NCBI RefSeq assembly: GCF_964355755.1
Contig: NC_092674.1
Location: 27,454,001-27,518,000 of the forward strand
Origin: Antedon mediterranea
Lineage: Eukaryota; Echinodermata; Crinoidea; Comatulida; Antedonidae
Length of the DNA stretch: 64,000 bases
Direction: 5' to 3'
The notes below the pieces were generated by a model. That model was not told where the DNA came from. It saw only the letters and a list, made by a program, of their open reading frames with translations, and made no database searches. This document shows positions 24,530 through 60,758 of this stretch, one piece after another. Position 1 is the stretch's first letter. Each line of letters opens with the position of its first letter. The position numbers and the translations under genes are program-made.

Positions 24530-24566
24530 TTAGTTAGGCTTCAGCTGGTATTCAAGTTTTTTCATT
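24530..24566 (-). CDS. CEP44: CEP44 coding exon 8 (last)
   Basis: 37 bases after TTTTTAAACAG encode MKKLEYQLKPN and TAA, resembling the MKKMFEETAELL...PN end of the human protein. No clear AATAAA is seen just downstream. Confidence 0.75.
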
Positions 24567-27500
24567 CTGTTTAAAAATCACAAGTAAATTTAAAGACTTT
24601 CACGATTGTATTAGCATATTTTAGTGACATTCAAATTTCAGCTAATAAGGCGTCTTAAATGAATGTCTAAAGCTCTGTCTACATCAGCAAACTTTATGTG
24701 ACAAAAAAGTGTGATGTGCCCAAATTTGTGGTAGTGATGACATCATCATATCCATACATGTGGGCTCATTGCATGTTTTTGTAAATGAGTTTGATAGTGT
24801 AGACAGAGTTTTAAACTAAGAAAATTTAACATTGGTCTTTATTAACTGGAAAAAGGTCTTCTTAAATGAAGACATTCTTATATAGCTAGATTCAACAAAG
24901 AAGCCATCCAGTAGACAATTCAAGATCAAAAAATTAAAATATTAATATGGTTTCTCTATAATTAGTAAAAGATGTACTTACGTGTTACTAACTCTATTTA
25001 CTTGGGTTTGCCTTGCCTCTTGGTTGATGGGACTTGAGGTGTACACATGGTGTAGATTTCTAGAACTTGGTGCTGGAATATCAAGACTCATTAAAGACAA
25101 ATTAGCAGGTTCTTCTTCATTTTCGATCAACTCAGTTGTACTAGATACTGAAAAAAAAAACCAGTATTTATATAGATTAAAGATGTATTGTCCCCTAAAT
25201 AATTATTATTATATATATATTATTATAAACATTTTCTGTTGAATATGCCATTTTAATGTCACATAATAGTTATCCACTTTGAACAAAAATTAGATCTAAA
25301 AAAAATTTATTTACCTGAAAAAACTGTAATTTAAAGCAAAAAATTGTCAAATTGGCTGCCACGCAATGGGTTTTTGGTTGAATTTAAACATTTTTTTTCC
25401 AGTTTTTAACTTTATTAAAACTGCAAAATAACCTATTCAAAGTCTGATTTAGTTAATCGTCATTTTAATTGTCAATAGGCCATTTTGTAGTTTAAATAGA
25501 AATTATTTACCAGAAAAAAGATGATAATTTCACTTCACAAAACAAAATAAACAGTTGAATTTAACCAAAAACATGTTGTCTGGCATCTGGTTTTCTTCAG
25601 ATAATTTTTTTTTTCAATCCAAACTTTGGTTAAAGTGCACAACATATAGATATATATATGCAGTATATATACATAATAAATTACCAGAAACAATAAAATA
25701 CAAATATGTTTTCTTTATTACAGCCTTACCATTTAAGTCCTGTACTGTTGACAACTTACGATCACCGAAGCCACCCTGGAAAGACATTTATTTATCAATT
25801 TATTACATTCATAAATACATGGTCAACAATGCACATCTAAGTATTTTTCTATTCTAAATATTTAGTATGGAGGCTATTGGCATGGTAGATAGTGACATAA
25901 ATTGATTCCTATCGGCACGGTCAACTGTGAGCCTTTATTATATTGATCTATCAACACAGAGATCTAGGTGCATGGTTGGTTGTGCCGATAGAGAACTTTA
26001 CATAAAGCTCTGTCTACACTATCCAACATGCAAAAAAAATGTTATGTGCTCATATATGAATACGATGAAGTCATATCACCAACACACACTTGGGCATCAC
26101 TACCATATTTGGGCACATCACTTTTCAATCTAGTTTGATAGTGTAGACAGAGCTTTAGATGGACAATAAATTACATGCATGGCTGACTGTGCCATTGACT
26201 ATGCCACTTCAATTTGTAAATAACCAGTTATAACCATTTCAAACCTTACCAAGGTATTTAATATAACAATTTGGTTTTCCATTAAAACGAGTCGATTCGA
26301 ATTTGATCTCATTCCTTTCTCTAAGCTTTCAAACTTTTCAGTTAACTCGTCAGTATCCTTTTGTCTGTCCACCTTGAAAGCGCCTTCACCAGAGAATTTT
26401 TCCTCCAAGTTGCTGACTCTGTTTACAACGTTATTAAGTTTAGAAAACAGTACATCTGTTAGCTTCAAGCATTCACTTATTCTGTTTGTGATATTTTTTG
26501 TCTGAAATGGTAAAAAAGAAAACATGTTTAAACATTACCTGTAATTTCAGTAATTTAACTTTGGAAACTCTAGTTAAAAATGTTTAAGATTAATTTAAAA
26601 AAGAAGTTTTAATTAGGTTTGATATAACTACTAGTAGTAGTCATAATATCTTTATTTTGTCCATTAAACAAAATTAACAAAAACTTGTTTGGCGTATCAT
26701 ACTGTATATATACTGTAAATAAAACACTAAAAATACACAGAAAAATTGCACCAACACAGATAACAAAACCCAACAAAATTCTCTGATAACAATTGGCTAA
26801 AAATCTACTACTTTACAAATATGGTTTAGTCAAATGAAAATAAGTCAAAACAGACCTCTTCTTCGTTAGAGTAGAGTACAGTATTCTCATGTGAAAAATA
26901 ATCATGATTTTGTAAGTATGGAGTATGCGGATTGGTTGATGGGAGATGACGAGTAACAAGTCCAACATTGCTTCTTATTGGCTCAATCGATATTTCATCT
27001 AAAATAAAGTTAAAAAGTTTAGTACCATGCCTTTCAACTAACAATAGATTCTGTTGACTAACAATATAACAGCAACGCCAAAAACAAACAGTTGAATTTG
27101 AAAAGCAATAGATTTTTAAAAACTACTCGTATCGAAAAACTTTTAAATTAAATCAATTTATGTTTTAAGATTACAAACCATAAATTATAACTCTTGCCTC
27201 TTGTACAAAAATGTTTTTTGAACAAGTAGTTCTCGAGAAAATGAAATTTTAGTTTACTTGTTACTTTAAGACTGCTTGCCGGATTTTGAAAAATTCTGTC
27301 CTATCTTTAACACTAGCACTGCAGGTCTGAAAAGTATACTAAAAAGTGGTCCAGAATTGGGACCGTGTTCCCATAATTTAATGGAATGGTCCTTGACCAC
27401 TTATCTATCTGTACTGTATATTCATTTTTGAGTGATCCTGCTAACAAACAAACATGATCGATTACATATACCTCCTTGGCGGAGGTAAATAAATTCTCCT

Positions 27501-30500
27501 AAATCCAACATTTAATATTCATGATTAATAATTATCCCTGACAAAAGAATAATTTTTATTTAAGAGCTTGGTATATTTTTTTAGCTGTTTAACTTTATCG
27601 TTTTTCTTTTTGCTTATTTTATTTGTAGATCCAGTCACTGATGTCATTTTTCAGTAATTTTTTGCTTTTGGATTGATGATTAATGATCAAATATTTCTTA
27701 TGAAAATATCAACAATTGAAACACACTAATCAGAAATAACTACAAAATACAAAACATTTAATTATATATTTGTTTAATGAAGTTAATTTTGGGTTTTTTT
27801 TATACAAAAAGCAAAATATAAATCAATATTATCTAATTAAATTTTAGGATATTGAGAGAGTAAACAAAAGGAGATGGAGTAACAAATAGACAGCAAATGA
27901 TTCAAGCTGAAAGCACTATTGTTCTGATCCTGTCAGAGATAGTCAGTTCATGAATTAAAGCTATTGTTAATAATTATATTCAAATGATGAATTTGGCAAC
28001 AAAAGATGAGTGATAAGGGATCATGTACCTTGTTCAGACATGGAGCAAAAAACGGTTTATTTTAGTCTACTAAATGATACTGTACTTAAATGACAATTAA
28101 AAACCTCCTCTCCACTTTCATTGGGGTGCTAAATGAATAATTTTTATTTCTTGAACATTTTTAAATAAGCCTACAGTAATAATCCTCATGTTTGTATTTT
28201 GACCATCTGCAAGACATCACAATGTACAGTAAGACCATACAGATTTATCTCTATGGTAAGAAAGCTGTTTGAAATGAATATACAGTATTTTAACTACAGT
28301 ATTTAATTTTATTTCATTTATTTTCTCTCAGATATACATACAAAAAAAAAAACAATAGATAGAGAGACAAGATTCCCATTATTATATTAATCCAAAGGCA
28401 GATTACTGAAAAAATGACAATGCTGTGGGTATCAGTGGCTGGATCTCAATGGAGATACAAAAAAAAAAAGCGAAAAGCTATTAATCAAAACGATATTTAG
28501 TAAAACCGCCATAAAAGTTAGCAATTATTATTATTATTATTATTATTACTGTTATTCTTATTACAGCATTATAGATATCAAATGAATTTAACAAATTATG
28601 ATCAAACGTTTTTCCATCACTAAAGTTACAATTATAATAATTAGTGAAGAGTGAAATTGACAAGCAACAACCCAATTTCTTCTTGAAAATGTCAATATAA
28701 GTCCGAACTTAATACAATACTTTACTAATACTAATAATCTAATATAGTGTGTATTTTGATCATCTGCTAAGTACCCTAAGACACGCATGTACAGTAAGAC
28801 CATATACTGTAGATAAAAGATACTAGAGAAGCACCTACGTCTTACAGGTTTAAGCTAGGGGCTAAGACTTATTTACCAATACGTATGAAACTGGCAATAT
28901 GTGCACATGGGTGTCCTGTTGTCGCTGCTGTAAATGTCGACCAACTTAGTTTAATCTTAAATAATACAAATTTATAAATTACTATTATAGTTAAATATTT
29001 ATTATAATGTTATAAACTTTTTTACTCATTGTGCCATTTGGGATTGGACAGTCCTAGAGGTGTTTACCACCTGTTGGTCCCATCCTTCACTGAATCTACT
29101 CTGTTCTTTTTATATGTTTTGTCTTTTTCTTTGTATGTACATTTTTGTGAGAATTTGAATAAAAGTAAGACTACAGTACAGTAAGCTGTTTTAAACAACA
29201 ACCGAACACAATATCTGCAGCACAACATACAGTCCATGATGTTAGTAAGTAATTTCTATGGTAAGACTATTTTCTAAAGCTTTATTTATCAAAGTACTTC
29301 TTTGGCCGTATTCATCATGTTTTCCTTAAATTGTTAGTATTTCAAGTTTGACTAATCAAAATGCAATACATGTAAAAACAACGATTTTAAAATTGTTTGA
29401 AAAAGAAAAGAATAAAATATATAATTGAAAATAAAAACATAAAATGAAACATGTGAAGGCAGTACTCAATAAATATTTAATTATTTTCCTTTTTCACTTT
29501 TAGATAGGAGTGTTTCCTTTAGCCCAACTAAGTGTGAATGGTGAATATGACCAATGTTCATTTGGTGAGGAAAGCAGGCCTAACCCTTGTACTCATAAAG
29601 ATGACAGCTAGTAAAATATGAAATGTAGAAATAAGATGAGATTGGCATTCCAAACAGCGAAATCAGACATCACTTCAGAGTTGTGCTATTAAAACAAACA
29701 AGAGATCCACTTACCCTCCTTGTGGTCCAACGGTTGTTGTGGCGGTATAACACAAAGTTCCTTAAATCGGTCAACGTTTGGCCTATGATCAACAACATCT
29801 TCACTATGTCTATACTCTGAAGACAACATCATATTCACAGACTGTGTTCTCGGCTCAGGTGCTATGGCCATAGCCTGTGATGCCAGATTAGCGTCATCCG
29901 ACTCTGGTAAAGCCGGTGGTGAAAGAATTTCAACGGAACCATGAAATGAAGCTGCTGCCCCCATGGATGTTGCACTACTGGTCTTTTTTGTCTTTGCTTT
30001 GGAAAAATAAGATTATTTGATACATGTTTAAAAATGTTGTTGTAATAGTATTTATCTGGCAATACTTATTCTCTTTTTACTTCTTACTTCAACATGAATT
30101 AAACTGGTTAAATATTTTAAAGCATAAATTAAAGCTGTTCAACAGTTGGAAAATCTATTTATTTAATAATAACCTTCCGAATAACTTCTGCAACAAATTC
30201 TACTTTTGACTCATGATATAAATTTCATTAGCTGAATTATATGGGAGTATGTTTCCATAAAAAATGACCGGGGTAATAATGTGCAGCATATTGAGAGCTT
30301 GCTTATAATATTTGCTATAAGAATGAACTATTGCTATTAACAGTATAATCTAGTTGTTCTTGTAGTGGAAAAATATTAATAAAAGGGTAGTGAGTTTTTT
30401 TTTTTCAGAAAAATAGTTTTGCCCAGTGTAAAAATAGGCTTTACATTTTGATTTACGTATTAACACTTGTTTTTTGGCTTGAACCATCTTAATAACGTCT

Positions 30501-31156
30501 CGCATCATTATGAGTTTGTGTTCTGCATATCCTTGTCGAAGGAACATTTCTTTTGAAATTATGGGTTTGTAGTTGAAAATATCACGAAGAACCTACAAAA
30601 TAATACAATTGAATATCTTCACTTTAACCAATTACCAAAATGGAATTGTGTATTGCCTCTCGTTATTTGTAGTCAGTGTTATGCTATGAATAAGATTATA
30701 TTTTTCATGTTTAAGCTTGGTGACCACTTTGACGCAAAGCAACAGCGTCATGATTGGTCACGTTACTTGCACTGCGCTTACACCATTGCACCGTTGGTTG
30801 CAGAGTTTTAAGCTCTGTCTACACTATCAAAGTAGTTTGACAAAAAGTGTGATGTGTGCAAATATGGTAGTGATATTCCCAAATATAGCAGTGATATGAC
30901 ATCATCATGTCCTTACCTTATAAACTCCATCAATGAAGCGATCATCATGTGATGGAGACAGCTGGATTTGATGAGACGTAATCAGCTGTGCGATATGTCG
31001 TGAATATTGCAATAAGACTGAACGCAATATGTCTACAAATATTTGAGGAGTACCCTTTTTTAAATCTTTTTGCCGGTTTTCTGTGAGGTTAACGTTTACA
31101 GATCGGAGAAGTGGTTGCAAGCAGCGAAAGTTATTTAATAGATCTCCAGTACTCAT
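24530..31156 (-). CDS. CEP44: CEP44, centrosomal protein of 44 kDa (8 coding exons)
   Basis: Coding exons in gene order: 30917-31156, 30457-30592, 29715-29996, 26856-26998, 26250-26501, 25730-25775, 24982-25147, 24530-24566. They join in phase to 433 residues (human CEP44 is about 390). The N-terminal CEP44 domain spans about residues 1-125; MSTGDL at the start, DDRFIDGVYK at 71-80 and NYKPII further on match MATGDL, NDLRFIDAVYK and NYKPIL of the human protein. Residues 127-267 are a variable linker. Residues 268-351 are a predicted coiled coil (LEEKFSGEG, FESLEKG). The C terminus TMKKLEYQLKPN resembles the human end. In human cells CEP44 binds the centriole lumen and microtubules and helps centriole-to-centrosome conversion. 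Junction 2/3 is the least certain. ATG at 31154-31156 follows a likely 5'-UTR splice acceptor. Confidence 0.92.
24669..24811. mobile_element. MITE-A copy 4, in CEP44 intron 7
   Basis: AAGCTCTGTCTACATCAGC on the left, with the mirrored GATAGTGTAGACAGAGTTT on the right, TA outside both. Its CArG site has decayed. Confidence 0.8.
24982..25147 (-). CDS. CEP44: CEP44 coding exon 7
   Basis: Acceptor is a long T-run followed by CAG; donor GTAAGTAC is strong. Encodes an acidic stretch (ELIENEEEPANLSL) and a Ser/Pro-rich region (IPAPSSRN) as in the human C-terminal part. Split codons join exon 6 as GTA and exon 8 as ACA. Confidence 0.8.
25177..25460. mobile_element. MITE-D copy in CEP44 intron 6, one end lost
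   Basis: TTAAAGATGTATTGTCCCC is intact at the left. The interior (AAATTGGCTGCCA, GGGTTTTTGGTTGAATTTAA) matches the full copy inverted. It begins 29 bases from the exon 7 acceptor. A further fragment (TTGAATTTAACCAAAAACAT) follows to about 25640. Confidence 0.65.
25730..25775 (-). CDS. CEP44: CEP44 coding exon 6 (micro-exon)
   Basis: 46 bases between CTTTCCAG and GTAAGG encode GGFGDRKLSTVQDLN. Too short for an ORF search; found by splice signals and matching phase on both sides. Confidence 0.75.
26005..26155. mobile_element. MITE-A copy 5, in CEP44 intron 5
   Basis: Full copy with TA on both sides, both inverted ends present, and CCATATTTGG inside. It lies about 95 bases beyond the exon 5 donor. 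Confidence 0.85.
26250..26501 (-). CDS. CEP44: CEP44 coding exon 5
   Basis: 84 codons in phase 0 at both ends; acceptor TTTACCATTTCAG, donor TTG|GTAAGG. Encodes the heptad-like coiled coil (KLNNVVNRVSNLEEKF, KFESLEKGM, RLVLMENQIVIL) that aligns with the human CEP44 coiled coil. Confidence 0.88.
26856..26998 (-). CDS. CEP44: CEP44 coding exon 4
   Basis: Starts after TTTATTTTAG in phase with exon 3 (split Asp codon) and ends in YSNEEE. The donor GTCTGT is weak; it is chosen because the phase matches exon 5 and the frame stops soon afterwards. Confidence 0.75.
26999..29714. other. CEP44 intron 3
   Basis: A 2.7 kb AT-rich intron with an (ATT)n microsatellite at 28523-28548 and several purine runs. 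No other feature recognised. Confidence 0.6.
28523..28548. repeat. ATT microsatellite
   Basis: About eight and a half perfect ATT/TTA units within CEP44 intron 3. Confidence 0.8.
29715..29996 (-). CDS. CEP44: CEP44 coding exon 3
   Basis: Residues about 126-220: a Lys/Ser-rich start (KTKKTSSATS), then a Pro/Ala/Ser-rich low-complexity linker ending in PLDHKE. The donor GG|GTAAGT is strong. The acceptor is TTCCAAAG, or four bases later with the alternative exon 2 donor. Confidence 0.8.
30457..30592 (-). CDS. CEP44: CEP44 coding exon 2
   Basis: 45 codons plus one base; VLRDIFNYKPIISKEMFL continues the CEP44 domain. Acceptor TTTTGTAG is clear. The chosen donor GTAAAT keeps phase with exon 3 starting at 29996; GTGTTA 15 bases earlier paired with a shifted acceptor is the alternative. 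Confidence 0.8.
30713..30800. mobile_element. MITE-B fragment in CEP44 intron 1
   Basis: AAGCTTGGTGACCACTTTGA resembles the MITE-B end, and the inner TGATTGGTCACGTTACTTGC matches the core. The right end is lost where MITE-A begins. Confidence 0.5.
30810..30916. mobile_element. MITE-A copy 6, truncated at the CEP44 exon 1 donor
   Basis: The left end AAGCTCTGTCTACACTATC is intact. Family similarity runs through CATCATGTCC and stops at the GTAAGG donor at 30911-30916; the other inverted end is missing. Confidence 0.75.
30917..31156 (-). CDS. CEP44: CEP44 coding exon 1
   Basis: 80 codons, residues 1-80, holding MSTGDL and DDRFIDGVYK of the CEP44 domain. The donor is AAG|GTAAGG. Before the ATG the minus strand reads TTTTTTTTAATAG, an acceptor at 31173, so a non-coding first exon lies upstream. 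A truncated MITE-A begins right after the donor. Confidence 0.92.
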
Positions 31157-32345
31157 TTTCACAAAACAAAGTCTATTAAAAAAAACAAAATAATAATTCA
31201 AAGAATCAAACTGTTGAGTATGATATTGATTAATTGAGTAGGCTAACAATAACAGTAACATAATTTATAGCCTGCTGTGTGTTTGGCTTAACTAGTGTAG
31301 TACTACACTAGGCCTAACGGATCCGGCCTAACTAGCCTAGTAGGCCTAGAGTAGATTCTCTATAGCTAGCCTCCCAGGATATTGATCAGAATACTTATTA
31401 CTAGGGTCTACTGTACTGTAGGTAGTATCTATTATTCTACTATTAGGCCTAGCCTAGGCTAAACTAGCCTAATAAGCCCTCTCAGTCAATCTAGCCTACT
31501 AGCCGGTAAACAGACGATCATGTATGTTGCATATAGGATCCTAGCTAGAGGATCATATACGATAGGATAGGGTTCCAGGACGACGATTCGGCGCGCTACC
31601 TAGACGATCGGGTCTACCATAATATAGACGAGTATTTAATTACTAATTATAATATTATACTAACTAGTGTATATCTTTTAGTCCGCTATACCTACTCTAG
31701 ATTAAAGGCAAATAATTTGTCTGAATAATAATAATAGGCCTACCGAACTGAGGGCTGAGGAGGGAATTTAAGAGAGAGAGAGGAGGAGAGAGCAGCACTT
31801 TCGTCACTTTCTTTTTTTTTTAAATATACCGCCAACATTCGGGGAAAGTGCGCCACAATCATTAGACTTTGTGAACCAGACTGATCACTGGCATGTTTAG
31901 GTTTAATTATTACAAAATACTGCCCGGGCCTACAGTTAAATACATTCTTGTATTTAATATTATCAAATATAAATACTCTATTTAATCAATTAATTATATA
32001 AATCATTTTACAATATACACAGGCGTTCCAATAAAATACGTCGCCTGTGCGAGTCATGATTTATTTATGGGCCCTTTAAAAATGACGTCACATTCTCCAC
32101 GCAAGCTGTCTCCACGTACCGTACGTCAAAACATTGACGAGGCAATGTTTGTTGACATTTTTTGCAAGGAAAACGTTTAATTATCATAAGTTCAGACCTA
32201 CTGTTGTAGTGATGAACCTTTTCTAAAATAACAGCAAGGGTTGGTATGTAAGAATATATTGTAGATAATTGAAAATAGTATTGAAGAAACGGAGTATAGT
32301 CGAAGCGGCCATATAATAATATTTAACTAGGTTCTAGGCCAACCT
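31157..32345. promoter_or_regulatory. Shared upstream region of CEP44 and FBXO8
   Basis: The two genes are head to head. Both coding starts follow candidate 5'-UTR splice acceptors (31173 on minus, 34053 on plus), so their first exons should lie between. The stretch 31260-31500 is dense in CTAG and AGGCCTAG motifs; 31750-31790 is GA-rich; 32030-32140 is richer in CpG and holds a CRE. TATGTAAGA near 32247 is a possible donor for an FBXO8 leader exon. A bidirectional promoter near 32.1 kb fits, but start sites are not proven. Confidence 0.5.
32083..32090. promoter_or_regulatory. CRE palindrome TGACGTCA
   Basis: Perfect cAMP-response element, the CREB/ATF site, in the head-to-head gap. CREs are common in bidirectional housekeeping promoters. 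Binding is inferred only. Confidence 0.5.
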
Positions 32346-32382
32346 TATGGAACGCCTCCTCTGCCTTCAGTTCACATTTATC

Positions 32383-32757
32383 ATGCAGTACACACCAATC
32401 GTAATGCAGTACACACCAATCGTCATGCAGTACACACCAATCGTCATGCAGTACACACCAATCGTCATGCAGTACACACCAAACATCATGCAGTACACAC
32501 CAATCGTCATGCAGTACACACCAATCGTCATGCAGTACACACCAATGGTCATGCAGTACACACCAATTGTCATGCAGTACACACCAATCGTCGTTCACAT
32601 TTATCATGCAGTACACACCAATCGTCATGCAGTACACACCAATCGTCATGCAGTACACACCAATCGTCATGCAGTACACACCAATCGTCATGCAGTACAC
32701 ACCAATTGTCATGCAGTACACACCAATCGTCATGCAGTACACACCAATCGTCATGCA
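32383..32757 (+). repeat. 21 bp minisatellite, left arm
   Basis: About 17 units of ATGCAGTACACACCAATCGTC: ten, then a 13-base interruption (GTTCACATTTATC), then seven. Variants at the last bases (AACATC, ATGGTC, ATTGTC) mark individual units. Confidence 0.9.
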
Positions 32758-33093
32758 GTCAAATATTGCGTAATTTATACCGCCACCTATCGACAAAATC
32801 GAATATCACGTGAGTTTTATTAGACGGCTGTAAAACTAAGACTATTTAAACTTCTTTTATGGAATTCAATAATTGCAATGGCCTCCTAGCCGCGCCTGTG
32901 TCTCGCATAATAAATTATTGTATATATAAAAAACAGAGCATTCACAGAGATGTGTAGCGGTTAAAATAAGTACAGTATGTCAAACATAAAAGAAATCTTA
33001 GAGTCGATGGCCTAGTTTTACAGCCGTCTAATAAACGTCACGTGATATTCGATTTTGTCGATAGGTGGCGGTATAAATTACGCAATATTTCAC

Positions 33094-33455
33094 TGCATGA
33101 CGATTGGTGTGTACTGCATGACGATTGGTGTGTACTGCATGACAATTGGTGTGTACTGCATGACCATTGGTGTGTACTGCATGATGTTTGGTGTGTACTG
33201 CATGACGATTGGTGTGTACTGCATGATGTTTGGTGTGTACTGCATGACGATTGGTGTGTACTGCATGACCATTGGTGTGTACTGCATGACGATTGGTGTG
33301 TACTGCATGACCATTGGTGTGTACTGCATGATAAATGTGAACGACGATTGGTGTGTACTGCATGACCATTGGTGTGTACTGCATGACCATTGGTGTGTAC
33401 TGCATGACCATTGGTGTGTACTGCATGACCATTGGTGTGTACTGCATGACCATTG
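33094..33455 (-). repeat. 21 bp minisatellite, right arm
   Basis: About 16 units of the same repeat, inverted. The same interruption is present (GATAAATGTGAAC at 33329), but with eleven units inside and five outside it, so unit numbers changed independently in the two arms. Confidence 0.9.
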
Positions 33456-33490
33456 TGAACTGAAGGCAGAGGAGGCGTTCCATACAACCT

Positions 33491-34053
33491 AGGCCTACTT
33501 ACAATACAAGCCTGCTTTTCTCTCACTCAGTAGAAGAGAGACTGTCTTTTCTCTCAGGAGCTAGGCTACACAGGGTAGAGAGAGGGCTATGTATTTTAGA
33601 GGGCAGACCCACCTATATAAACGTACAGGCATGACTAGGCTTTACTAATATAATTAGCCAGACCTGTCATTTGGGTGGACACAATTGGTTCTCTGTGGGC
33701 ATAATTAAACAAATACAATCTACCTACTAGTCTAGTACTGTAGTATAGTATTACTACTATATTCCTTCCTTACTACCTAGTGGTAGAGAGTAGAAGCCTG
33801 TTACTATGTCATGTCTTTTTTAATGTCACCACTATACTGTATTATACAAAATGTTAGTGTTATAGTCTATAACATTAACATTTAGTTATACTCGCATTCA
33901 CAATGTTGATCTTCTTATAATAAGACTAAGAGTCAAATGTTATTGTTTTTAATACAATTTTATGTTGTGACATGTAGCCTACAGTAGTACTAACAAAGTT
34001 CATATGTAAACATATTGAAAACATCCTTTAAAAAAACACATTTTTCATTCCAG
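33491..34053. other. Non-coding, likely FBXO8 5'-UTR intron
   Basis: No frame or repeat recognised. It ends in the acceptor-like TTTTTCATTCCAG at 34041-34053, which would join a leader exon to the first coding exon. Confidence 0.45.
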
Positions 34054-34077
34054 ATATGAGAGTTAAAAAACTTGGAA

Positions 34078-34319
34078 ATGGGTCAATCTCTACGACGCAT
34101 GAACAGAAACCAGTCCCCAAATGGTGTCAACAAATATAAAAGATTGAAACGGAATTTCCCACTTTCAAACCTCAAGGAAACATTTCCAGACCTTTCGGAG
34201 CTGCCGCCAGAGATCGGCCTTGCAGTGCTATCAAACCTAAATGCAACTGATCTTTGCCTTGCTGCCTGTGTGAATGAATTTTGGCAGGAACTAGCCAACG
34301 ATCAGCTGTTATGGCAAGG
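34078..34319 (+). CDS. FBXO8: FBXO8 coding exon 1
   Basis: Residues 1-80 plus two bases: N-terminal basic segment and most of the F-box. Donor GG|GTAAGA. Preceded by a likely acceptor at 34053. Confidence 0.93.
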
Positions 34320-37300
34320 GTAAGATACTTATGGGCAGTGGCAGATCCAAGATTTGAAATAGGGATTGGAGGGCCTCAGTCGTTTGTAAATATTCAAAAA
34401 TGAAGTGCTATAAATCTACAGAAACCTAAAGCTCTGTCTACACCATCAAACTTTATGTGACAAAAAAATGTGATGTACCCATGATGTTTGAGAACATCAC
34501 ACTTGTTTGATAGTGTAGACAGAGCTATTATTTGCATTTTAACCCTCTTGGATTACGTCAAAAAATAGCATCACACTGCACAAATCTATCATAACAATGC
34601 TTTCAGTAAATATATTTCATTAAAGATAAAACCTAAAAACATGACAAATGAAGATTAATAAAATCAAACTTAAATAGGCCATTTTGTAGTTTTAACCAAG
34701 TCAATCACTTCTGTAGAAGTTGTTCACTTGTAGCTGGCTATTTTGTCTGTTTGTTCCCCTAAAGTTTTTTTTACAGGTAAATAATTTAATAATAAATCCA
34801 ATTTTTGGTCAAAGTGAATAACTATTATGTGACATTAAACTATTTACCAATATACTTCTGTTTCTGTAAAAGATTAAATATTGTAGATACAGTAGACGAT
34901 AATTTGTTAAATAGATGATTATTACATGACTATGAGTCTATTGTTTCCAGCAAACAACATCATAGATGAAAGAGTATGAACAGATGAGTAAAATTGTTGA
35001 AATGAAATAATTTAAAAACTAAACCTTTTTATTTTTGTAGACTGTGCCGTGCTACATGGGGCTGCGTTAGTGCTTATGAGCAAGATCGTACAGATGAGCC
35101 TGGGTTCTCGTGGAAAGGACTTTACTTGCAACTAGATGAAGCCAGTTTATCATTTTCTGCAGATGCACAACTAGTAAGCATATTGACTTAATCTCTGTCT
35201 ACACTATCAAACTTTATGTGACAAAAAAATGAAATGTGCACATATCACTACCATATTTGGGTATATCACTACCATATTTGGGTATATCACTACCATATTT
35301 GCGTATATCACACTACAGTAGTTTGATAGTGTACAGTAGACAGAGCTTTAGAAGTAGTAATGTTACCACTAACTATTATAATGTTACAAATAGTAACAAA
35401 CCTAAGTTTGTATACCTGCCAGAGTCAAAGAGGATTGCCTTGTAATCAGTGTACAAGACCTTCCAAGTCTCCCGGAGTCTTGGTAGGCATCGCAGGTGTT
35501 TCCCAACATCACAAAAAAAAAATATCCCAATTGTTTCTAAATTTACCTGTTGAGCTTTACCACTATGAAACACCGGTTCTCGTCAGATCATCGAAGTTAA
35601 GAGACGTTGGGCCTGGTTAGAGCTTGGATGGGAGACCATCTGGGAATACCAGGTGCTGTATATGGAGCTGGAGTCCCATTAGGCATTTTAAATCAGCATT
35701 GCTGACCCTTATGGCAGCCCCTGCATCTAGTATCTGTCTGGATGAGAGAAGCGCTTGATCAATGTTAGGACCAATCAAAGTGCTCTCTTTGTATCAAACA
35801 TGTTAGTGGCGGTAATTATCGCTGTTGGTTTCGATTAAAGGTTTAAAATAAAGGCAAAAACTGTGTTTGTGATGTTTTTTAACTAAAAAAATGCTGATAT
35901 CTATGATTGTTAATATAGCGCCCTCTATGCTTAATGTATGAAAACAAAGATCTTAGATCAAAATATATTGATAGCACTCTCTATGGTTTGGCTATGCTTT
36001 TGTAACTGTTCCTTTCTCTGTTTCTCCTTCCCACATTTTCTTTTTTTCTATATTACAATATTTTAATGTATGTACTAACAATAACCACGTTTGTATTTAG
36101 GGTTTAGATTATTTATTTCGACACAACCTTGTTGACAACAACCCCTTGGCAATCGCTCAATTTATTCATACTACAAATACCTTACACCATTGGCAAGTTC
36201 GTAAGTTCCTCCAAAAAAGGTAAGGTTTGTTTTTACCTAGTTCTGGTGGTGGAACAAGTCTTCTCGGATAAGGACTATAATATAAACCGTAGGTCCAATG
36301 TACACAGTTATGTCCACTTTCAAGAACCTAGTCTGTTATTCAAGACGAGTAGGGGTTACCCCGGTGAACTGGTTCACAAAATAGTCCCTGTATCAGGGGG
36401 ATTAATACCTACAGTATCTGATATGACAGTGGTTTATTTACTCTTGGTAATTTTTGGCCACATGTGCCTAAAGACATAACAATAAAATCATTTGAAATAT
36501 ATTTGTTTTTTTCAGGAGTGATGTTTTAGAAGAACTAGTGGGCCTTGATAACTATGCAAACCATTTTCTACCGAATGCATTGCGCACATTTTTTTCTCAT
36601 GTGGAAACTCCCAACGAAAGAGGCCCTTATCTTCAGACGTTGATTGAAATGTTTGCAAAGAAGTTTATTAGCTGCAATAAAGATTGCAAGCTAACTGTTG
36701 GTAAGTGTAATGCATAGGTTGTGAGGTGTTTTCCTGAATGATCGCATGATTGAAACGGTACTGGGTATTTTCAACTAGCGTTCATGTTCCCAACTAATCA
36801 TCCATGATGAAGAAGTCTGTAACTATAGAATGGACCAGAGACCTGACTTTCTTTGACGTTTAAATTATAGGAGTTTTGAATTATTTTTTAGTTGTCACCC
36901 TCTATGATACAATGAACAACTTTTTCTAGACTTAAGTAAAAAGAATGCTTGAATATTTGTAATTTATGTTGATTATCCTACCCAAACTTTATTATTACTT
37001 TTCTCGAAATGTATTATAAATATGATTATTTAAATTTTGAAATAAGGAATTAGGTAAACCCAAGCTTCATATATTTGTTATAATATGGTACATTCTTTTT
37101 TTTTAAAAAAACAAAAACTTAAAAATACACAAATTTAATATTTGTTTCGTTTCTTTTTTTACAGAAACAATTTCTGTTCTGTGTTATTCGCTGATATTGC
37201 TGTCAGTCGACCTTACCAGTCCGAAGGTGAAAAACAAGATGTCAAAACGGGAGTTTATTCGCAATCTTCGTCAAGCTACGCAGATTGACGACGAATTTTC

Positions 37301-37596: not shown

Positions 37597-37602
37597 AATA
37601 AA
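37597..37602 (+). terminator. FBXO8 candidate poly(A) signal
   Basis: AATAAA about 240 bases after the stop codon. Confidence 0.5.
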
Positions 37603-50300: not shown

Positions 50301-53300
50301 GTAAGTGTTATTCATTATCTATACTTGTTCTCTTATTGTTTTTTAATTACATGTTCTTTTAATGATTTATTAATAATTATGTAATAAGCCTAACCCTAAA
50401 AAACGTTGATGATTTTATGATAAGATTACTGTATAGGCTAATAGAGTAAATAGTAAATACAACTTTCTATTACAGTACTATTAGTTAGTGCATAGTTGCC
50501 ATTAGAATTAGACCGATGTGCGCAATTAATTTCAAATTGCGTAAGGAATGTGTCAATTTCTTGATTTAGTTATCTATTAGTATTAGGTTAGTTCTTAATA
50601 TAAAAAATTTGTCGTTTTCGAAAGAATTTTTTTTTCTACTTTCTAAATTTCAACTAATATAGAAACTAGTACTGTACATAGAATGAAATCAAACGTGGCT
50701 TGGCTGTTTTAGATTCCATGTATTTAGTCACCCTTAGCGATGGCCGTCATGGGTCGTTCCGGTTGCGATCGTTTACCACGTGGGCCGTGGCCACTGAGGT
50801 AGGCCTAACTTAGTTAAGCAATATGGGCCTAGTTTAATTTTACCCTTTTCTGGTTTAAAATATTAGTGCAATTACTGTGATTTCAACATTTAGACTTAAA
50901 CTTAATTTGTATGTTCCGACAACCAACTTATGTAAACATCTCTAAAATTGTATGCCTTATATATAGCTTCTTTGTTTTTGTTATTGTTATAATACGCATA
51001 GCATGTATTACAGTGTTTACAGATGGATTGTGGAGGACATTTTGTGATATAAATTTAAACTGTGAATAAAATATATTCATTTATAATTAAATAAAATCCT
51101 TCAGTAAACTTCAAACAACAATTGATTTATTTGTGCACTTTTTATTTTATTATTAAGATACATAGTTACCGTGTTGTATTCTGACTAATATACATGTATT
51201 ATTATTTATTATAATACATTGATTCACATTTTTGGCTGATTGGAATAACGTTATATCGCCAACCATTACGTTCGATGAATTTACTGCTTAGCTTTTTCTT
51301 TTACTAGTATTTTTGTAATTTTCTAAATTGTGCATAGTTTAACCTATAATGAATAAATGTGCATTCATTCTCCGTCTGAATATAATAATACCAAAACATA
51401 TTATTAAGTTGCACAACCTACATTTTCGCCAATGTAACTGTATTATTGTTTTTGAGGTAATTAATATTACTTTGTCCTATATTGTGTTTTATGATTACGT
51501 TTGTATAGTGAGACCAATAATGTAAATCAGATTCCGTAAAATCTATATTTTATTTATATTTGAGATGATACAGAAGAACATCATAAAACCTGACAATTTC
51601 ATATTGAAAAACAAAATTTGTAAAACCTTTATTTTCATATAAAACCCGTAAATAGTGATGTGATCGTTTACATATAATTATTAGAATCATTAACCTTTTA
51701 TATTTTGTTTTGACAAGCGTTTACGCTTCTTTGAGGACCTAGTTGTTTATAACTGAAAACGTGAGCCAGAGCCCAGAATTATTTTTACAAAATACCTTTA
51801 AATAAATGTTGCATTATCAACGCTGAATATATATTACTTAAATATATTTATTTTAAATTTGTAAACATTGTTTTAAAAATGAAATCTAACGTAAAATAAC
51901 ATGTTTTCGGTCTGTTTAGGCCTCAGGCCACCCTCGCTCAAGCAGGCCCAACGCATGGTTATAGGCTAATTGATGCCACTTTTTTGGTCTAGAATCTACC
52001 ATCGCTAGTCCTTCCAGTATGCCTAAATTAACGACTACCACTTGTTGGTTATTTCCCGTGGTGGATTGGATGTTTCCGCTAACCCCGTTTATTATTATTT
52101 AATAACATTCGTAATAAACACAATATAAATATGTATGAAGTGTTAACTGTATTTGCAACTACTGTTCATAATTAATAACTTCCAACACAGGTCTGTTATC
52201 CGATCGTTTTATTGTTAGTTTATAAATCAAACTATGTATGAAGAATTTTACACAAAGTTCGTAATTTTATAATGTTAGCTGTTAAAGATTAACGTCATGG
52301 AATGATGTCCTATAAAGATGTGTGCTTTACAGGCCTCGTTATAGTAGGACTATATACACTGTGACTCACCCAGACTCGTAAATGAAAGGGGTGTATGTTT
52401 TGTGTTAAAATCCTGTTTGGTTGGAATTAGCATCAACTTAGAAACGGGGCCTGGCAATACCCAAGTGGTATGAGAAATGTTTGAGGGGCATAGTGTGACC
52501 GTTGTATTAGCTGTTTATACTTGGGATGAGCCTCTTTGGGGACTCTAAATGGACATACTCTTCAACGCACCAGGAAATTGGCATGTCTAAACGAGAACTA
52601 TCAACCTGCTTTTAAATAAATACATTTGAAAGAATGGCTAGTTTTAGAGTTGAGTAAACTAAACGTTTGATATCTGTTTAAACTTAAATTAATATCGTAC
52701 TATCACGAAATCAAAATTATAAGATCAGATCATATTTATGTTAAACACTAATGTAAAATCACTATCAATATGCTTTTGAATAAATACATTTGACAGAGAA
52801 TGGCTAGTTTTAGAGTTAGTTAGTTTCAAACTAAACGTTTGATATCTGTTTAAATTTAAATTAATATCGTATAACGAAATCAAAATTATCTAATCAGAGC
52901 ATATCTGAAACACTGATGTAAAATAAAAACTAAAACGAGAACAAATTCATGCTGGACTGTTATTACGTTTATGGGTTAAAATGATAACGTAATATGAATA
53001 TTTGTCAATCACACAAGAAACAAACGATGCTACTTTTTGTAAGTCTTTTTAATTTTTTGAGAACCAACCAAATCTGACAATACACCGTATACAAATTATA
53101 TATGCCTAATAAAAAATAAATAAATTTAACGAAATTTGATATAAATGTTTTAAAAGAAAATGACACATTAAAATGTGTATTCATGGTACAATACAGTATT
53201 TATTCATAGGGTGACAGTTATGTTAACGTTTTACACCGGATATGTGAGTTTCAACAACTTGGAGTTTCCAAAGTGTCTCTGGTTTGTGTTTTATCGGCAA

Positions 53301-56300
53301 GACAGGGGGTCACATCGCAACCCCTTCACGTTAGCAAAACCAGCACACATATATATCGTCATATTTCCAATGTGTACGTGATGTTATGAATATGGTATCT
53401 TGTCTTTATCATAACAAATCCTGGCAGAGGCTTAATTTCTGACAGTGTTGAATACCGTGGTCTGTATACAGTTTCCGAAAAATAACATCATTGCATCTTT
53501 GACAGGGTCTGGTACAGTTAAAACCCGTAGCATGTTGGACAGAATCATATTGATGAAAAGTGAGCATAGACAAACATCTGCATTTAAGACAGGGATACTA
53601 TAGAAATAAGCTGTAGAAAGTTGGGGTAAACCGGGTGGCTATGTTACACGAACCCAGTTTTTTTTAGTGTAGCGATCGTTGTCGTAAAGAAGTTTGCTCA
53701 TCGGCTCCATCGGTATGTATGAGAAGCACATGCTTAATTGAAGATTTCTAAACGATGAAGGATAGATATAAAGTTAAAGTCCACCGTTATGACAACGCTT
53801 GTCACATCGCTTTAACGATTATCATTTTGTTCTCAACGATATGTCAAATTGTAAAGTATTGAAATATAGGTAACAGTAACTGAAAAAAAGTGGAGAAATT
53901 GGAACTTGTACATTCATACAAAAAACGGAGTATGAATACTTTTTAGATAGGTTACATTCGTAACATCAGCTGTATAAGTAAGTATATAAACTAACTAAAG
54001 TTAAGATGCGAGGTGTGATGACAATAAACAACGAACATTTTGTGTTAGAAAAAGTTACAAAATGGCTGGTTGACTTCATTCAATGGTTACTTTCAGTTTA
54101 TTTTTCCATAATACTGTAATTTGTTTGTTTTGTTAATTCTGAGAGACCTAAAGTTTAAAATGCAAATCAATAGCCTCTATATTTGTTATTTTCGAGTGTT
54201 TTATCAAGCCAACAAATTTAAAATATTGCATTAAAGTTTATGTTGAATGAACGCTTTCATAAAATATTCTTCAATAAATTTTGTTTCTAGTTGATTGATA
54301 GTACGGTCCAATAATAAATAGTCGTCTGGAAATTCTACCAATTTTTCGGATTATTTGTCAAAATATGTGATTTGTTGGTTTAGTGTTAACCACGAGATTT
54401 GTGAACCACAGTTTTTATAATTACCGAACGTACTTTTCGTTCAATGTATACATTTTGGTTAGGCCTGATGTTCTTAAATATGAAGGGTATAGGCCTACTT
54501 TAATAACACTTGGCGCAGAATACGACCTGGATACTGAGGTGTCGTAATAAATAAACGTTTGGGCTCGAAATATCAACGGTGACTGGCTGTCTGTACATCC
54601 AGATTGATTTACTAGTACGTTTTTTGAAAATGTGTGCGTCAAGAAATATGAAGTAAAAAGTACACCAACTCATATCACCTAACCCTAACTTGAAATAGAT
54701 AATTCATACTTAAATACCTTTAATAGCAAGTTTATCACAACCGGCATATTTTCAAACATTTTAATTTTTATTTGTACCATTATTATTGTAATTAACTCGC
54801 TTTCTAATTTTCTTTAATATTACTGTACTATTTACTATATCTGTATATAATTCTTTACGTTAAACGACGTACGTTTTCATGAATTGTGTAACGTAAATTA
54901 ATAATAATATATACAATAGTTAATATAAAACCAACATTTTTCAAATATTTACTATATCGAAAATTATAATTCTGTTTATTAATTCTTATGTCATTAATTA
55001 CAACCTTTCCATATTGTTGACGAGTGGTTTGTGTGTAAAAAAGAAAACGTAACATAGTAAAAATTGTACAGATTATCATACAAAATCATAGTTAGGCCGA
55101 TACAGGAAATTAACATAGACAAAATGTGCATTAAAGTTCGTGCAACTATGCAGATTAATATAATAACAAGAAGCTTGAATTTCAACACCTGCTAAACAAA
55201 AAGATAAGTTAAATAACATATTCCGGTCAATTTATTAAAATTAGGATCTTTTTTACATTTTTCAGATAACTTTCATATTTTACAAGACATAGCTAATAGA
55301 TTTTGGTCAGTATCTATAGATAGTAGAAAAACATCAGTCCTGGTCAACGTTATAATTACTCTAATTTTGGTACAAAAGTGTTTCACATTCTCATCTAGTT
55401 ATTATTTTGTTGATAGAGTTAAGGTAGATTTCACACTTTGTAAACTTAAAAACGTAAGCGACGAGTTATCTTCTTCCCCCTGTGATTGGTCAAATTGTTT
55501 GACTTGCGCATATCGTCCACGCGTTGTGTCGTTCATGGGGACGAAACTCTATGCAAAGTATTTCAACTGTAGATGATGTTCGTTCTTTATATTCAAGACT
55601 TAATATGGCCTTATTGTTCCTATTTTTGCGATTTCGGTGATAGTTATTTGCCTTGTTAACTTATATTATACTGTATTTAGATATTAAAAAGATTTTGGTT
55701 TTTTTAAAACTTGTTTTGCATTGTGATCCTGTCTTAAATACAAAACAAAATCAGGGAAAAAGGAGATCGATATCTAGCTTTGATTGAATCAATTGTTTGG
55801 GAATATTTAATTTCAGTTGGTAGGTTATTCCATATTGGAGCGCCTGTAACTTTGAACGACGAGTTCATCTCACTAATGGTATAGTAGGGTATCGTTATTA
55901 TATTTAGGCGTTCTTATCTTATTGCTTCATATTTTAAAATTCACTATTTTATTAATCGGCGTGTTATATCTTAGTTATTTATTTATTATTACTCGTTTTT
56001 TTACAAACTATTCAACATACATTGCTGTCTATTATTAAATTAGGTAAACTATTTGATAATAATGTTCTAACATAATTTTCCAATATTCACAAAATATTTA
56101 ACAAATACACGTTAGAGATTTGAGTTCTTACTAAAATTTCAATTTTATGTCAATTTTATATCTTTAGGGAATTGTTTAAATTTCCTGCGTGTCATGATTA
56201 ATTACAATACAACAAATATCAGTTCTCACTCGGCTTTTGAATATTTTCGTTTTTGACAGTTTTTTCTTGTTGTATAAATTCCAACAATGCTGAAATATTT

Positions 56301-59300
56301 TGTTTGTTTTATCTTTGACGTTTTTTTGGTAAAATACAATAAAATAAAAGTGAATGTAATCGGAATATGCTTATTTGAAGGCGTTTGAAAAATATTAATT
56401 TAATGAAATTATTGAGTACGGTACAAATTTAAAAATTTATTAAAACAAATATTTCAAAATTTGTTTTTTCTGCTCCTTGCTAAAGAGCAATGCATTAAGG
56501 CATACTCAGGGCATACTCAGGTATTTGTAAACGTTTGCTGTTCATTAACGAACTTTCTAAAAATAATTTAATACTAATTACTATTGATTAAAACTAAAAA
56601 AAGTTAATTGTTGTTTTAAAATAACTGACCACATAATAAAACAGATACAATTATTAATATTAGATTATTATACCGTGAAACACAACAAAAAGAGCGATAC
56701 AATTGCATTAAATATTCAGGTATTTGTAAACGTTTACAGATATTAACAACCTTTCTAAAAATAAACGTTTACAGTATATTAACAACCTTTCTAAAAATAA
56801 TATAAAGACAAAAATAAGGCAAATGTTTTAAAACCACTGACTGTATTAAAAAGGTCGACACTGTATTCGTTTTTATGTAAACAATTGTTATTCCTCACGA
56901 CGAGTGGATGAAAAGTAATTGTTAACACATTTCCTTCCCGGGTTTTTAAAACAACAATGAATTTTTCTCAATTTTTGAAAACAATTAGCTCCTTGGGTGT
57001 ACGGTTGTCCTCGTTACAAGCAAACTTATTTTAAGTAGAATAACAACTGTCACCGTTAACCTACTGTTTTTTTAAGGTAATAAATTACTCGGTTAAACTA
57101 TCACAAGATCAACGTAAATCTTTCTGACCCACAGTATTATTGCCGTCTCAATTTTGTTTCGTTTATTCTTTCGTATTTCGTCGAATATAAATGCCCTTCT
57201 CGGGCGACGACCACTGTATTTAATAGCGCCGACTAGTCTCGCAGGAGCTGGGCCTACCTACTTATTACAGTGAGAACATTAACGATATTTAAACTATTTA
57301 AGCCTTGTTCTTCAAAAGTGCGCGTAGCTTATTAACCCCCATTATTAGTGTTACCTCAATAATTTATGTCCTTGTGTTAAGATTGTTACCTGTTGGCCCA
57401 CCCAACACAATGATATTTGTGTCCCCTAAAGCGTGGTTCCCACTAGCGACGCAACACAAGGACGTAACGCAACGCAAGTGAATTGACCAATCACAAGCGA
57501 TGGCTTATTCGCTTGTGATTGCTATCTGTCTATAACTTCGCTTGTCATTGGTTAAAACGCTTACGTTGCGTTTACGTCCTTGCGTTACGTTCTAGTGGGA
57601 ACCAAGCTTTAGTGTTGTGCCTATCACTTCCTTTATTTTTAGTCGCGTGCAAACGCGGCTCTAATAGCTCACTATGTCGGTCGGTCGGTCGATCGGTAAA
57701 CACTAACTCAAATTTGCGCACACGACTGCAGATATGGACTTGTTTTTATTTTTATTCTGTTGGTCACTTTCGGATTGGAATGTTACCTAGCTGATGCCGT
57801 TTTATGTCGACCCAAGGCCCACCTTCTGTCCTTTGGTTCCCATGTTTATCTACTCGGTTTCCCTTTGATCCATTGGCGCCTTTTAAGTGCCATCATTAGT
57901 TGGTAGTCTAATCCTCGATCATTTTGACGCTTTGTATGCTTTCTGTTGTATTTGATTATTGTAGGAAATACGTTCTAATTAGAACATAAATTGAAACGAT
58001 TAAAGTATGTGTACATTTTGATTGTGTAATCCTTTTAATTAATTACATTTTTCAATGTAGTCGTTGGGGATTGTTAATGAAGTACTAGGCCTAGTCGAAC
58101 AACGAATGTTACATTGTGTAGTATTTTCCCAGGGACGAAGTTGTAAAGCATTCACCCGAGCAGCAGAAATGTTGATAAGTGAATGTATAGTCTGTAGTTA
58201 TGTTTTGTCACAGTCCACCAGTCGGCGTTTCGATTTTTCTTTGGAAGTCAAGCATTATGAAACGTTACAAATTATTTTCCTTATTTTTATTTTTTCCAAA
58301 TACAAGTCGGAATACTTAATTCTATCACATTTTCATCAACAATTGAAAGCTTGTCAAAGTTAGTATTAAATTACAAACTTATTAAGGGCGTCTTAAAAAG
58401 TCCTTACTTCTCACAGACAGCCCGTAATTTAATCAAATCGTCCTTGTCAAATTCATCTCGTAAAGCGTACGCTCGAAGTTGTGAATTGCTAAATACTGTA
58501 GATGGTAGACGCAACGCAACGCAAGTCATTTTTTTAATTACAACGTGATGAATGGTGGTATATCTCACCGTTATTGGTTACGTTACGTCCTTGCGTTGCT
58601 TCCTAGTGGGAGCCAAGCTTTTAAGGGCTTTTTATAGGTAATTCTAACATAGAAAAACATGCGTTTGGCATAAGGGGATCATTTGTACTGCCATCACACT
58701 GTTAATGAAAATCAATTGATTTTAATGTAAAGGAAATCGCCAAAAACTGACTCATTGTAAAGATAAAGATCGAGAATATAAACATAATACTTATAGTACA
58801 ACAATTACATACTGAAACAGCTGACGCGCCTGCATTGTCGTAATTCATTAGTTTTAATGTTACATTAATTGACTTCTAAAAGAAGGGTACTAATGTGACC
58901 CTAACGAAGCCCCGTTCAATACTACTAGCTACATGTTTTTCCTTCGTTAGTGTACGAATCATTAAGCTATACATGGTGAGTAACGTGTTATACCCACGAC
59001 AGGCCTGTGACTCTCAACTGTTCTCACGTCTATGGATGTAAAGTGTATTAATCCCACTTCTATAATAGGTCTATAATTAATTTTATTAATTTGATATCCA
59101 TGCCTGCGTGGCGTAGCCAGGCTTGTCACAGTGATGTTCCTTTCCCCCATAAAGTGACAAAGGAAACAAAGTAGAGTGGGGGTCGAGGTGGTGTTGGTAG
59201 GCTACTGAAGAAATTATTGTATTAGGCCTAGCCTTATGAAATATGTCAAGGGCCAATTTTGCTGCTCGTCTCTTGAAAAGAGCAATATAAATAAATGGCG

Positions 59301-60758
59301 TTCGTTCCTGACTGTTTATTTTAAGTTTAATGAAACAAATTGTGTTGTAAAAAAATACACGTTTTATTATAAATAAAACAGACTTATAGGCCTAGATGTT
59401 CTTATTATGTTTCCTCTTTCATTCTCTACTTATTTCTGAATCAGGTACTATGTATTATATCTACCTAGTTATGTTTTTTTAATTGTAGGATTGTGATATT
59501 AAAAACATTGTAAACGAAAATGTTATTTCTTGAATTGTTCATTTGTGTATTGTGCACCTGTGTTACGCTAATCCCTTTGATATGATGATGTCACAAAATA
59601 TCAAGGAATATACAGTACATTTGAATACGCTTTGTCGGCGCCAGTCACTCCAGACTATAACTTCCAATTAGCCCTAAAATGACAACATACGTCCGTTCCC
59701 AAATTGATAAGGGATTAAAAATATGCATAACTTACCCGATATGCAAATTACTATTCCGATTAGAATAGTTATGCACAGGTGTTGTTCTCTGTGGATTGTA
59801 AAAGTCACTCTAGAAATAGAAACATTGTTTTATCAATGTACACTACACGGATTGCTGTAATTTAGACGCGGTCATGTTTGAATTTTGCCGCAACGTGTGC
59901 GTGGGAGAATGTCCTGTGTGTAGCTGCATGGTTTCCGTGATGATAACAGTTTCTCACTGAAGAGCTAATATTATGTCGGGGATGAAACCTGTTCGCTATG
60001 TGATGAATTCATGTAATTTTTTTGTTGGTAAAATGACAGTCCATATTCTTAATTTTCTCTGAACTTATGTTGTTTCTTGTAAAGGGAAACTAAGGTCAAA
60101 TAATTGTTAGAAGATAGCGTCTGATGTCTGCCATATACTGAGAAATGCGTTGATAAAACGTTACTGAAACCGCGCTAAAATAGACAACCTAAAGCTTGGT
60201 TAAGTTGGTTCCCACTACGACGCAACGCAAGTGATATGACCAAAGCGATGGATTATTCGAACTATCCCTTGTTATTGGTCAACTGGCTAAAAAAGCGACA
60301 ACCTAAAGCTTGGTTCCCACTACGACGCAACGCAAGTGATATGACCAAAGCGATGGATTATTCGAACTATCCCTTGTTATTGGTCAACTGGCTAAAAAAG
60401 CGACAACCTAAAGCTTGGTTCCCACTACGACGCAACGCAAGTGATATGACCAAAGCGATGGATTTTTCGAAATGTCGATTGCCATTGGTCAATTAGCTTG
60501 CGTTGTGTCTTCTACTATCACTACCTCCTAGTGGAAACCAAGCTTTACAGTTTTCGGTTTCCACTTGTGATTCCTCAATGTTGTTTTCTTACGTCACTTC
60601 ACAATAATGTTATAATACAACCTATGCATTCCATACTCTTTTTAAAATGAGCTTTTGTTTTTCTCTTTCAGACGTCAATTCGAGGTAAAAACGAGAAAAG
60701 AGGACGCGGAAGAACTGGTTGGCCGGAACACGTATGGGCATTAGAACTACGCCAGTAA
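49779..60758 (+). CDS. Hand: Hand bHLH transcription factor (2 coding exons)
   Basis: Exons 49779-50300 and 60672-60758 join in phase to 202 residues. MSLIHEF resembles the HAND2 start MSLVGGF. Residues 49-60 are His-rich. The bHLH domain covers about 86-140: basic part [14 protein letters not shown], helix 1 to ECIP, loop [10 protein letters not shown], helix 2 [19 protein letters not shown]95 and S97 correspond to the helix 1 Thr/Ser pair whose phosphorylation tunes dimer choice in HAND1. The C terminus [16 protein letters not shown] is the HAND signature. Hand proteins dimerise with E proteins, bind E-boxes in the nucleus, and specify heart, mesoderm and some neural-crest or equivalent cells. 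A single intron just before the C-terminal motif matches vertebrate Hand genes. ATG 49779 is chosen over 49740, which is a TTG inside a likely intron or UTR. Confidence 0.97.
52602..52925 (+). repeat. Tandem duplication, 163 bp unit
   Basis: Two copies starting at about 52608 and 52771 share AATGGCTAGTTTTAGAGTT, AAACGTTTGATATCTGTTTA and ACGAAATCAAAATTAT. About 85-90% alike by eye, with small indels. Confidence 0.85.
55450..55552. mobile_element. Very degraded MITE-B copy
   Basis: AACGTAAGCGACGAG, CTGTGATTGGTCAAATTG and GCGTTGTGTCGTTCATGGGG follow the order of MITE-B. Ends not found. Confidence 0.4.
56512..56802 (+). repeat. Triplicated segment GTAAACGTTTACAG...
   Basis: TATTTGTAAACGTTTGCTG plus AACTTTCTAAAAATAAT at 56521, and two adjoining copies (TTAACAACCTTTCTAAAAAT) at 56720-56802. 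Local duplication with the palindrome GTAAACGTTTAC. Confidence 0.65.
57429..57609. mobile_element. MITE-B, full copy
   Basis: TA flanks; AAGCGTGGTTCCCACTAG at the left, CTAGTGGGAACCAAGCTT at the right. Arms continue with ACGCAACGCAAGTGA / TTACGTTGCGTTTACG, and ATTGG or CCAAT boxes occur in the interior (GACCAATCACAAGCG, GTCATTGGTTAAAAC). The end bases AAGC and TA target resemble MITE-A, so one mobiliser may serve both. Confidence 0.8.
57639..57731 (-). repeat. Dispersed GC-rich 90 bp repeat, copy 2
   Basis: Inverted copy of 8194-8288, starting AGTCGCGTGCAAACGCGGCT and ending CACACGACTGCAG, with GTCGGTCGGTCGGTCGATCGG inside, one repeat step longer than copy 1. Confidence 0.7.
58506..58620. 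mobile_element. MITE-B copy, left end lost
   Basis: AGACGCAACGCAACGCAAGT to TCCTAGTGGGAGCCAAGCTT. The left terminus is missing. Confidence 0.7.
60192..60545. mobile_element. MITE-B with internal 105 bp tandem amplification
   Basis: Three left parts in tandem, at 60192, 60306 and 60411 (AAGCTTGGTTCCCACTACGA and GATATGACCAAAGCGATGGA), then a single right end ACCTCCTAGTGGAAACCAAGCTT. Units 1 and 2 are nearly identical. The 105 bp unit, a multiple of three, produces a spurious repetitive 86-codon frame. It lies 126 bases before Hand exon 2. Confidence 0.85.
60672..60758 (+). CDS. Hand: Hand coding exon 2
   Basis: 28 codons plus TAA after [34 protein letters not shown] followed by VWALELRQ. Too short for an ORF search; the HAND C-terminal motif is unmistakable. 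Confidence 0.96.
   Translation, partial: TSIRGKNEKRGRGRTGWPEHVWALELRQ

Follow-up and report, generated by a model that had tools for sequence, protein, structure and literature searches.

The CEP44-FBXO8-Hand gene block of the crinoid Antedon mediterranea is shared with vertebrates and may have been kept by two separate constraints

Why should Hand, the gene for a developmental transcription factor of heart and limb, lie beside the unrelated genes CEP44 and FBXO8 in a crinoid as it does in vertebrates? We address this question in a stretch of 64,000 nucleotides from Antedon mediterranea (assembly GCF_964355755.1, NC_092674.1, positions 27,454,001 to 27,518,000 of the forward strand). This stretch, called the window below, sits on contig C5 of a 354-Mb genome, nearly all of whose sequence is in eleven large contigs. 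An earlier sequence-only reading had proposed that the three genes form a block kept since the deuterostome ancestor, possibly because of a shared promoter and of Hand enhancers inside or beyond the neighboring genes. The joint explanation that we favor, and consider reasonably probable, is that the block is conserved and was kept both by a promoter shared between CEP44 and FBXO8 and by a regulatory gap upstream of Hand.

The identity of the three genes is established by domain matches, gene structures and copy number. CEP44 occupies 24530-31156 on the minus strand and matches Pfam PF15007 (E 9.7e-32). Its first coding exon spans 30917-31156, its second, carrying the CEP44 domain, runs from 30592 down, a coiled-coil exon lies within 26202-26534, and the penultimate exon is at approximately 24981-25145; the last exon (24533-24577) encodes FLNRMKKLEYQLKPN and ends with the stop codon at 24530. 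FBXO8 lies at 34078-37358 on the plus strand, with Pfam matches to Sec7 (E 2.2e-31) and F-box-like (E 4.6e-12) and coding exons at 34078-34319, 35041-35173, 36101-36219, 36516 to approximately 36699, and 37165-37358. Hand lies at 49779-60758, also on the plus strand (Pfam HLH, E 2.6e-18); the coding sequence of exon 1 (49779-50300) contains the bHLH, the intron spans 50301-60671, and exon 2 covers 60672-60758. The protein has the full Hand bHLH as well as the 16-residue C-terminal motif, and terminates with TAA at 60756-60758. GT/AG sites are present at the inspected exon borders, those of the FBXO8 exon 4 donor and the 3' ends of the internal CEP44 exons being approximate. Compared with the human proteins, identities are 48/124 for the CEP44 N-terminus, 149/283 for FBXO8 and 87/172 for Hand against HAND2, or 39-53% over the aligned parts. 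Genome-wide, the CEP44 domain has a single match above cut-off, at this locus, and all exons of FBXO8 match this locus only; Hand scores 395.9 bits, far above the next-best genome match, a generic bHLH with 51.6 bits. By these sequence comparisons, all three are genuine orthologues, apparently single-copy, and no paralogue has been substituted for any of them.

The arrangement of the genes is equally clear. The start codons of CEP44 (31156, minus strand) and FBXO8 (34078, plus strand) place the two genes head to head, and the Hand ATG follows 12.4 kb past the FBXO8 stop. The open-frame lists of the window contain no further recognizable gene between the three. The sequence-only reading had described just this layout, with Hand about 12 kb beyond FBXO8, and its two outer boundaries prove exact to the base.

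The HAND2-FBXO8-CEP44 region of vertebrates (human 4q34.1, cattle BTA8, chicken chromosome 4) has the same genes in the same order and orientation, including the head-to-head pair, as had been claimed. In human, HAND2 and FBXO8 are on the minus strand and CEP44 is on the plus strand; when these strands are reversed, they match the orientation in the window exactly. The two regions differ in scale, since the FBXO8-Hand gap is 12 kb in Antedon vs about 700 kb in human. The gene order is documented in cattle, where the region is listed as GALNTL6, GALNT7, HMGB2, SAP30, SCRG1, HAND2, FBXO8, CEP44, HPGD, GLRA3 and ADAM29 (PMC10157977). The chicken list for chromosome 4, 43.0-44.0 Mb, includes FBXO8, CEP44, GALNT7, HMGB2, SAP30, SCRG1 and HAND2 (PMC8502938), and in pig the CEP44-FBXO8 distance is listed as 1,035 bp (PMC8833662). 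As a rough estimate, with some 2,000 genes on one chromosome, the probability that two given neighbors would have this order and orientation by chance is well under 1e-5.

How old, then, is the block? A genome homeobox search reveals a Hox cluster of 12 ordered genes over 380 kb (C2:7.83-8.21 Mb; L020-L024 and L026-L032), which begins with a Hox1-type gene, ends with three posterior ones and lies on a single strand except for one inverted posterior gene. The posterior genes resemble Hox11/13a, b and c, and none of the 12 cluster genes has a homeodomain of the protostome Lox2/Lox4 type. With these presumed family names, the comparison of the sequences gives good support to a cluster of the ambulacrarian pattern, that of echinoderms and hemichordates. 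A chromosome number of eleven would tentatively point to a crinoid; a search of the assembly gave no COX1. A deuterostome Hox cluster together with a vertebrate-like trio means that the CEP44-FBXO8-Hand block dates back at least to the common ancestor of ambulacrarians and chordates, in agreement with the age first proposed.

We turn to what could hold CEP44 and FBXO8 together. The observed/expected ratio of CpG ranges from 0.46 to 0.56 over CEP44 and from 0.40 to 0.67 over FBXO8, whereas it is about 1.0-1.4 in the neighboring genes for G protein-coupled receptors (GPCRs), in the FBXO8-Hand gap and in Hand itself. Indeed, the only 1-kb segments of the 64 kb with a ratio below 0.6 are at 24.5-30.5 kb and 33.0-37.0 kb, plus one at 39.0 kb. 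CpG-depleted gene bodies are the usual mark of germline methylation at active housekeeping genes in invertebrates. Between the two start codons, depletion continues from the CEP44 side through 31157-31450 (2 CpG observed vs 8.8 expected, ratio 0.23, P 0.007) and from the FBXO8 side through 33485-34077 (2 vs 17.3, ratio 0.12, P 5e-6). The stretch at 31451-32345 has 32 CpG vs 30.2 expected (ratio 0.9-1.2) and holds a TGACGTCA (cyclic AMP response element, CRE-type) site; it is the sole CpG-replete stretch between the two depleted genes that is not transposon, and the candidate shared CEP44/FBXO8 promoter. A polypyrimidine-CAG acceptor, likely a 3' splice site, immediately precedes the FBXO8 ATG exon. 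The acceptor and the depleted stretch upstream of the ATG suggest that FBXO8 transcription begins further left, in the CpG island that would also serve CEP44. A bidirectional promoter would be expected to leave such a pattern, with a single island (here about 0.9 kb) for both divergent genes, and we lean toward the view that the two genes are fired from one shared promoter. The earlier proposal of such a promoter thereby gains independent support of an indirect kind, from a single CpG-replete island lying between two CpG-depleted gene bodies.

In this respect the locus resembles known bidirectional promoter pairs, which are likewise head to head with one CpG-replete island between depleted bodies and which have start sites less than approximately 1 kb apart; it differs from them in that the Antedon start codons are 2.9 kb apart, partly through a recent 1.1-kb transposon. 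This is a foldback element of 1139 bp at 32346-33484. It has terminal inverted repeats (TATGGAACGCC...), each of its arms carries subterminal tandem repeats of 21 bp, and a 6-bp target duplication, CAACCT, flanks it; no gene was recognized inside it. Exact 6-bp duplications are also present at 2 of the 3 other foldback copies that were read. A genome search finds approximately 45 such elements over the chromosomes, the best copies being 96-100% identical, which argues for a recently active element and a recent insertion. Judging by the CpG pattern, the element adjoins the promoter island and probably lies within a 5' intron of FBXO8. Without it, the start codons would be about 1.8 kb apart, so the insertion accounts for part of the wide spacing. 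Other repeats in the window include a 105-bp tandem repeat at 60205-60492, with 96% matches over 2.7 copies, which lies in the Hand intron shortly before exon 2, and short 21-bp repeats of the ATATCACTACCATATTTGGGT type at 30859-30898, 35242-35311 and 61949-62000, which recur through the window and flanks and probably belong to a dispersed family of repeats.

The second interval of interest is the 12.4-kb gap between FBXO8 and Hand (37359-49778), whose position is equivalent to that of the vertebrate gap with HAND2 enhancers. It has one frame of at least 80 aa, which is repeat-like (38092-38349), and inspection by eye of the gap frames of at least 50 aa found nothing gene-like. Because the human FBXO8 and HAND2 genes share the minus strand, a region downstream of FBXO8 there is the FBXO8-HAND2 gap. 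The HAND2 super-enhancer of human neuroblastoma is described in these terms, its location being given as downstream of FBXO8 (PMC8528416). The heart enhancer aCNE1, located upstream of HAND2 at a distance of 406 kb in human and 108 kb in zebrafish, has retained the genes that flank it; it directs expression in the heart via a GATA site and makes contact with HAND2 (PMC7987942; PMC6255839). The block is also similar to the genomic regulatory blocks described with Synorth (PMC2745767), in that the developmental transcription factor gene Hand, which is CpG-replete, lies beside the unrelated, CpG-depleted housekeeping genes CEP44 and FBXO8. In vertebrate blocks of this kind the enhancers of the target are found next to the bystanders. 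The suggestion that enhancers of Hand lie next to or past its neighbor fits the vertebrate data on the HAND2 gap (PMC8528416, PMC7987942), while enhancers in this genome are not supported. The odds that Hand regulatory DNA lies in the 12.4-kb gap appear to us evenly balanced. More tentatively, and with less confidence, the gap could be a Hand control region dating from the ambulacrarian-chordate ancestor, from which the HAND2 super-enhancer hijacked in neuroblastoma descends, with CEP44 and FBXO8 locked in place for more than 500 million years.

These elements can be combined into one explanation, in which a microsyntenic block inherited from the ambulacrarian-chordate common ancestor is probably held by two separate constraints. 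In the first, the broadly expressed genes CEP44 and FBXO8 would be fired in opposite directions from the CpG-replete promoter at approximately 31.45-32.35 kb, so that separating them would damage both. In the second, the 12-kb gap, and perhaps the FBXO8 introns, would carry upstream enhancers of Hand, and FBXO8 would stay upstream of Hand for this reason, with FBXO8 and CEP44 as bystanders. Our analysis itself shows that the genes are single-copy orthologues, how they are ordered and oriented, and what CpG footprint they have, while the vertebrate order and HAND2 enhancers come from published papers; the transcription start sites, the enhancer content of the gap and selection against breakage are what we infer.

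The surroundings of the block show what was not kept. Flanking genes were read as far as approximately 30 kb to the left of the window and 40 kb to its right. The left neighbors are rhodopsin-family GPCRs; on the right, AASDHPPT is accompanied by a gene for guanylate cyclase (Pfam). Three GPCR genes, which look single-exon, lie within about 50 kb left of CEP44, at 15728-16981 (minus), 19858-21051 (plus) and L051:3255-4397 (minus); for the first, the thyrotropin-releasing hormone and ghrelin receptors are the nearest solved relatives. Between Hand and AASDHPPT, an open frame at L053:3887-4438 (plus) resembles the end of a reverse transcriptase and has no Pfam match.

A second fragment of the human 4q34.1 neighborhood is found elsewhere on the chromosome. 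SAP30 has one genome copy, at C5:30.798 Mb, and a search with human HMGB2 finds an HMGB gene in opposite orientation at a distance of 3 kb. HMGB (minus) and SAP30 (plus) are head to head, approximately 2.5 kb apart (L067/L068, C5:30793063-30799060), with two HMG boxes and zf-SAP30 (E 1.6e-37) identified by Pfam; a frame that by eye is PWP2-like follows SAP30. This pair is 3.28 Mb from Hand on C5, whereas in the vertebrate HAND2 region it is next door; in cattle, HMGB2 and SAP30 are listed as adjacent and near HAND2 (PMC10157977). Unlike the vertebrate region, the Antedon block was not found to have GALNT7, HPGD or GLRA3 among its neighbors. The best genome match of a GALNT7-type query is on C10, and by this search GALNT7 probably lies outside both modules; as a near neighbor, HPGD gave only weak dehydrogenase matches, the best being on the same chromosome, 4.4 Mb off. 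With other 4q34 neighbors relocated and the flanks different, the trio has persisted in surroundings that changed. A minimum of two modules of the human 4q34.1 neighborhood are thus durable, namely Hand-FBXO8-CEP44 and HMGB-SAP30. The simplest reading is that one old neighborhood was split in the Antedon lineage by within-chromosome rearrangement; alternatively, the two modules may have been joined in the vertebrate line. Hand's chromosome also carries three homeobox genes within 100 kb, Xlox/Pdx-, Gsx- and Cdx-like (L025, L033 and C5:29971175), which on sequence are likely the ParaHox trio.

Several observations weigh against the two-constraint explanation. A transposon has inserted into the head-to-head interval, whose length is therefore not under strict constraint. 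Cardiac motifs occur at chance frequency in the FBXO8-Hand gap and the Hand intron, and a search for the aCNE1 core, based on published primers, scored no better in the gap than in shuffled sequence; at such evolutionary distance, these null results neither support nor refute enhancer function. Finally, the genome looks slow-evolving, and passive retention can explain part of what we observe. Passive retention is the main rival: the block would be old and orthologous, rearrangement slow in both lineages, and the FBXO8-Hand adjacency in need of no regulatory tie. The ordered 12-gene Hox cluster, the likely ParaHox trio and the head-to-head HMGB-SAP30 pair were likewise kept, and the gap yields no enhancer signal. 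However, both flanks differ from those of vertebrates and the trio remains, and vertebrate HAND2 enhancers sit in the homologous gap (PMC8528416, PMC7987942); we judge this rival unlikely as the whole explanation.

A bidirectional promoter could also constrain the CEP44-FBXO8 pair only, leaving Hand's adjacency as an accident of slow rearrangement. The CpG footprint, which favors a single promoter island, and the spacing of about 1 kb in pig (PMC8833662) agree with this idea. It does not readily account for Hand still following FBXO8 directly, on the side where it does so in the cow (PMC10157977). Nor does it account for Hand having its human orientation despite the human gap of about 700 kb, and we regard it as more doubtful still. 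Coincidence, with the genes being paralogues of the vertebrate ones or independently assembled, is extremely improbable: no point in its favor was found, single-copy orthologues with diagnostic domains match in both order and orientation, HMGB-SAP30 from the same human region is on the same Antedon chromosome, and the single-copy genome searches rule out a chance or paralogue match.

Ancient animal microsynteny is itself already known, and Irimia and colleagues are said to have described ancient metazoan microsyntenic gene pairs in 2012 (cited in PMC7987942). We found no published record naming the CEP44-FBXO8-Hand trio in the literature, a search that did not cover the supplementary tables of microsynteny surveys; the papers searched likewise did not mention its retention across phyla that include protostomes. 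The finding divides human 4q34.1 into modules that are separately durable, HMGB-SAP30 and Hand-FBXO8-CEP44. It also narrows the search for Hand control DNA, which in human extends over some 700 kb, to a gap of 12 kb in a deuterostome that is an invertebrate. If this gap drives Hand, the control logic of heart and mesoderm would be comparable over more than 500 million years without sequence similarity.

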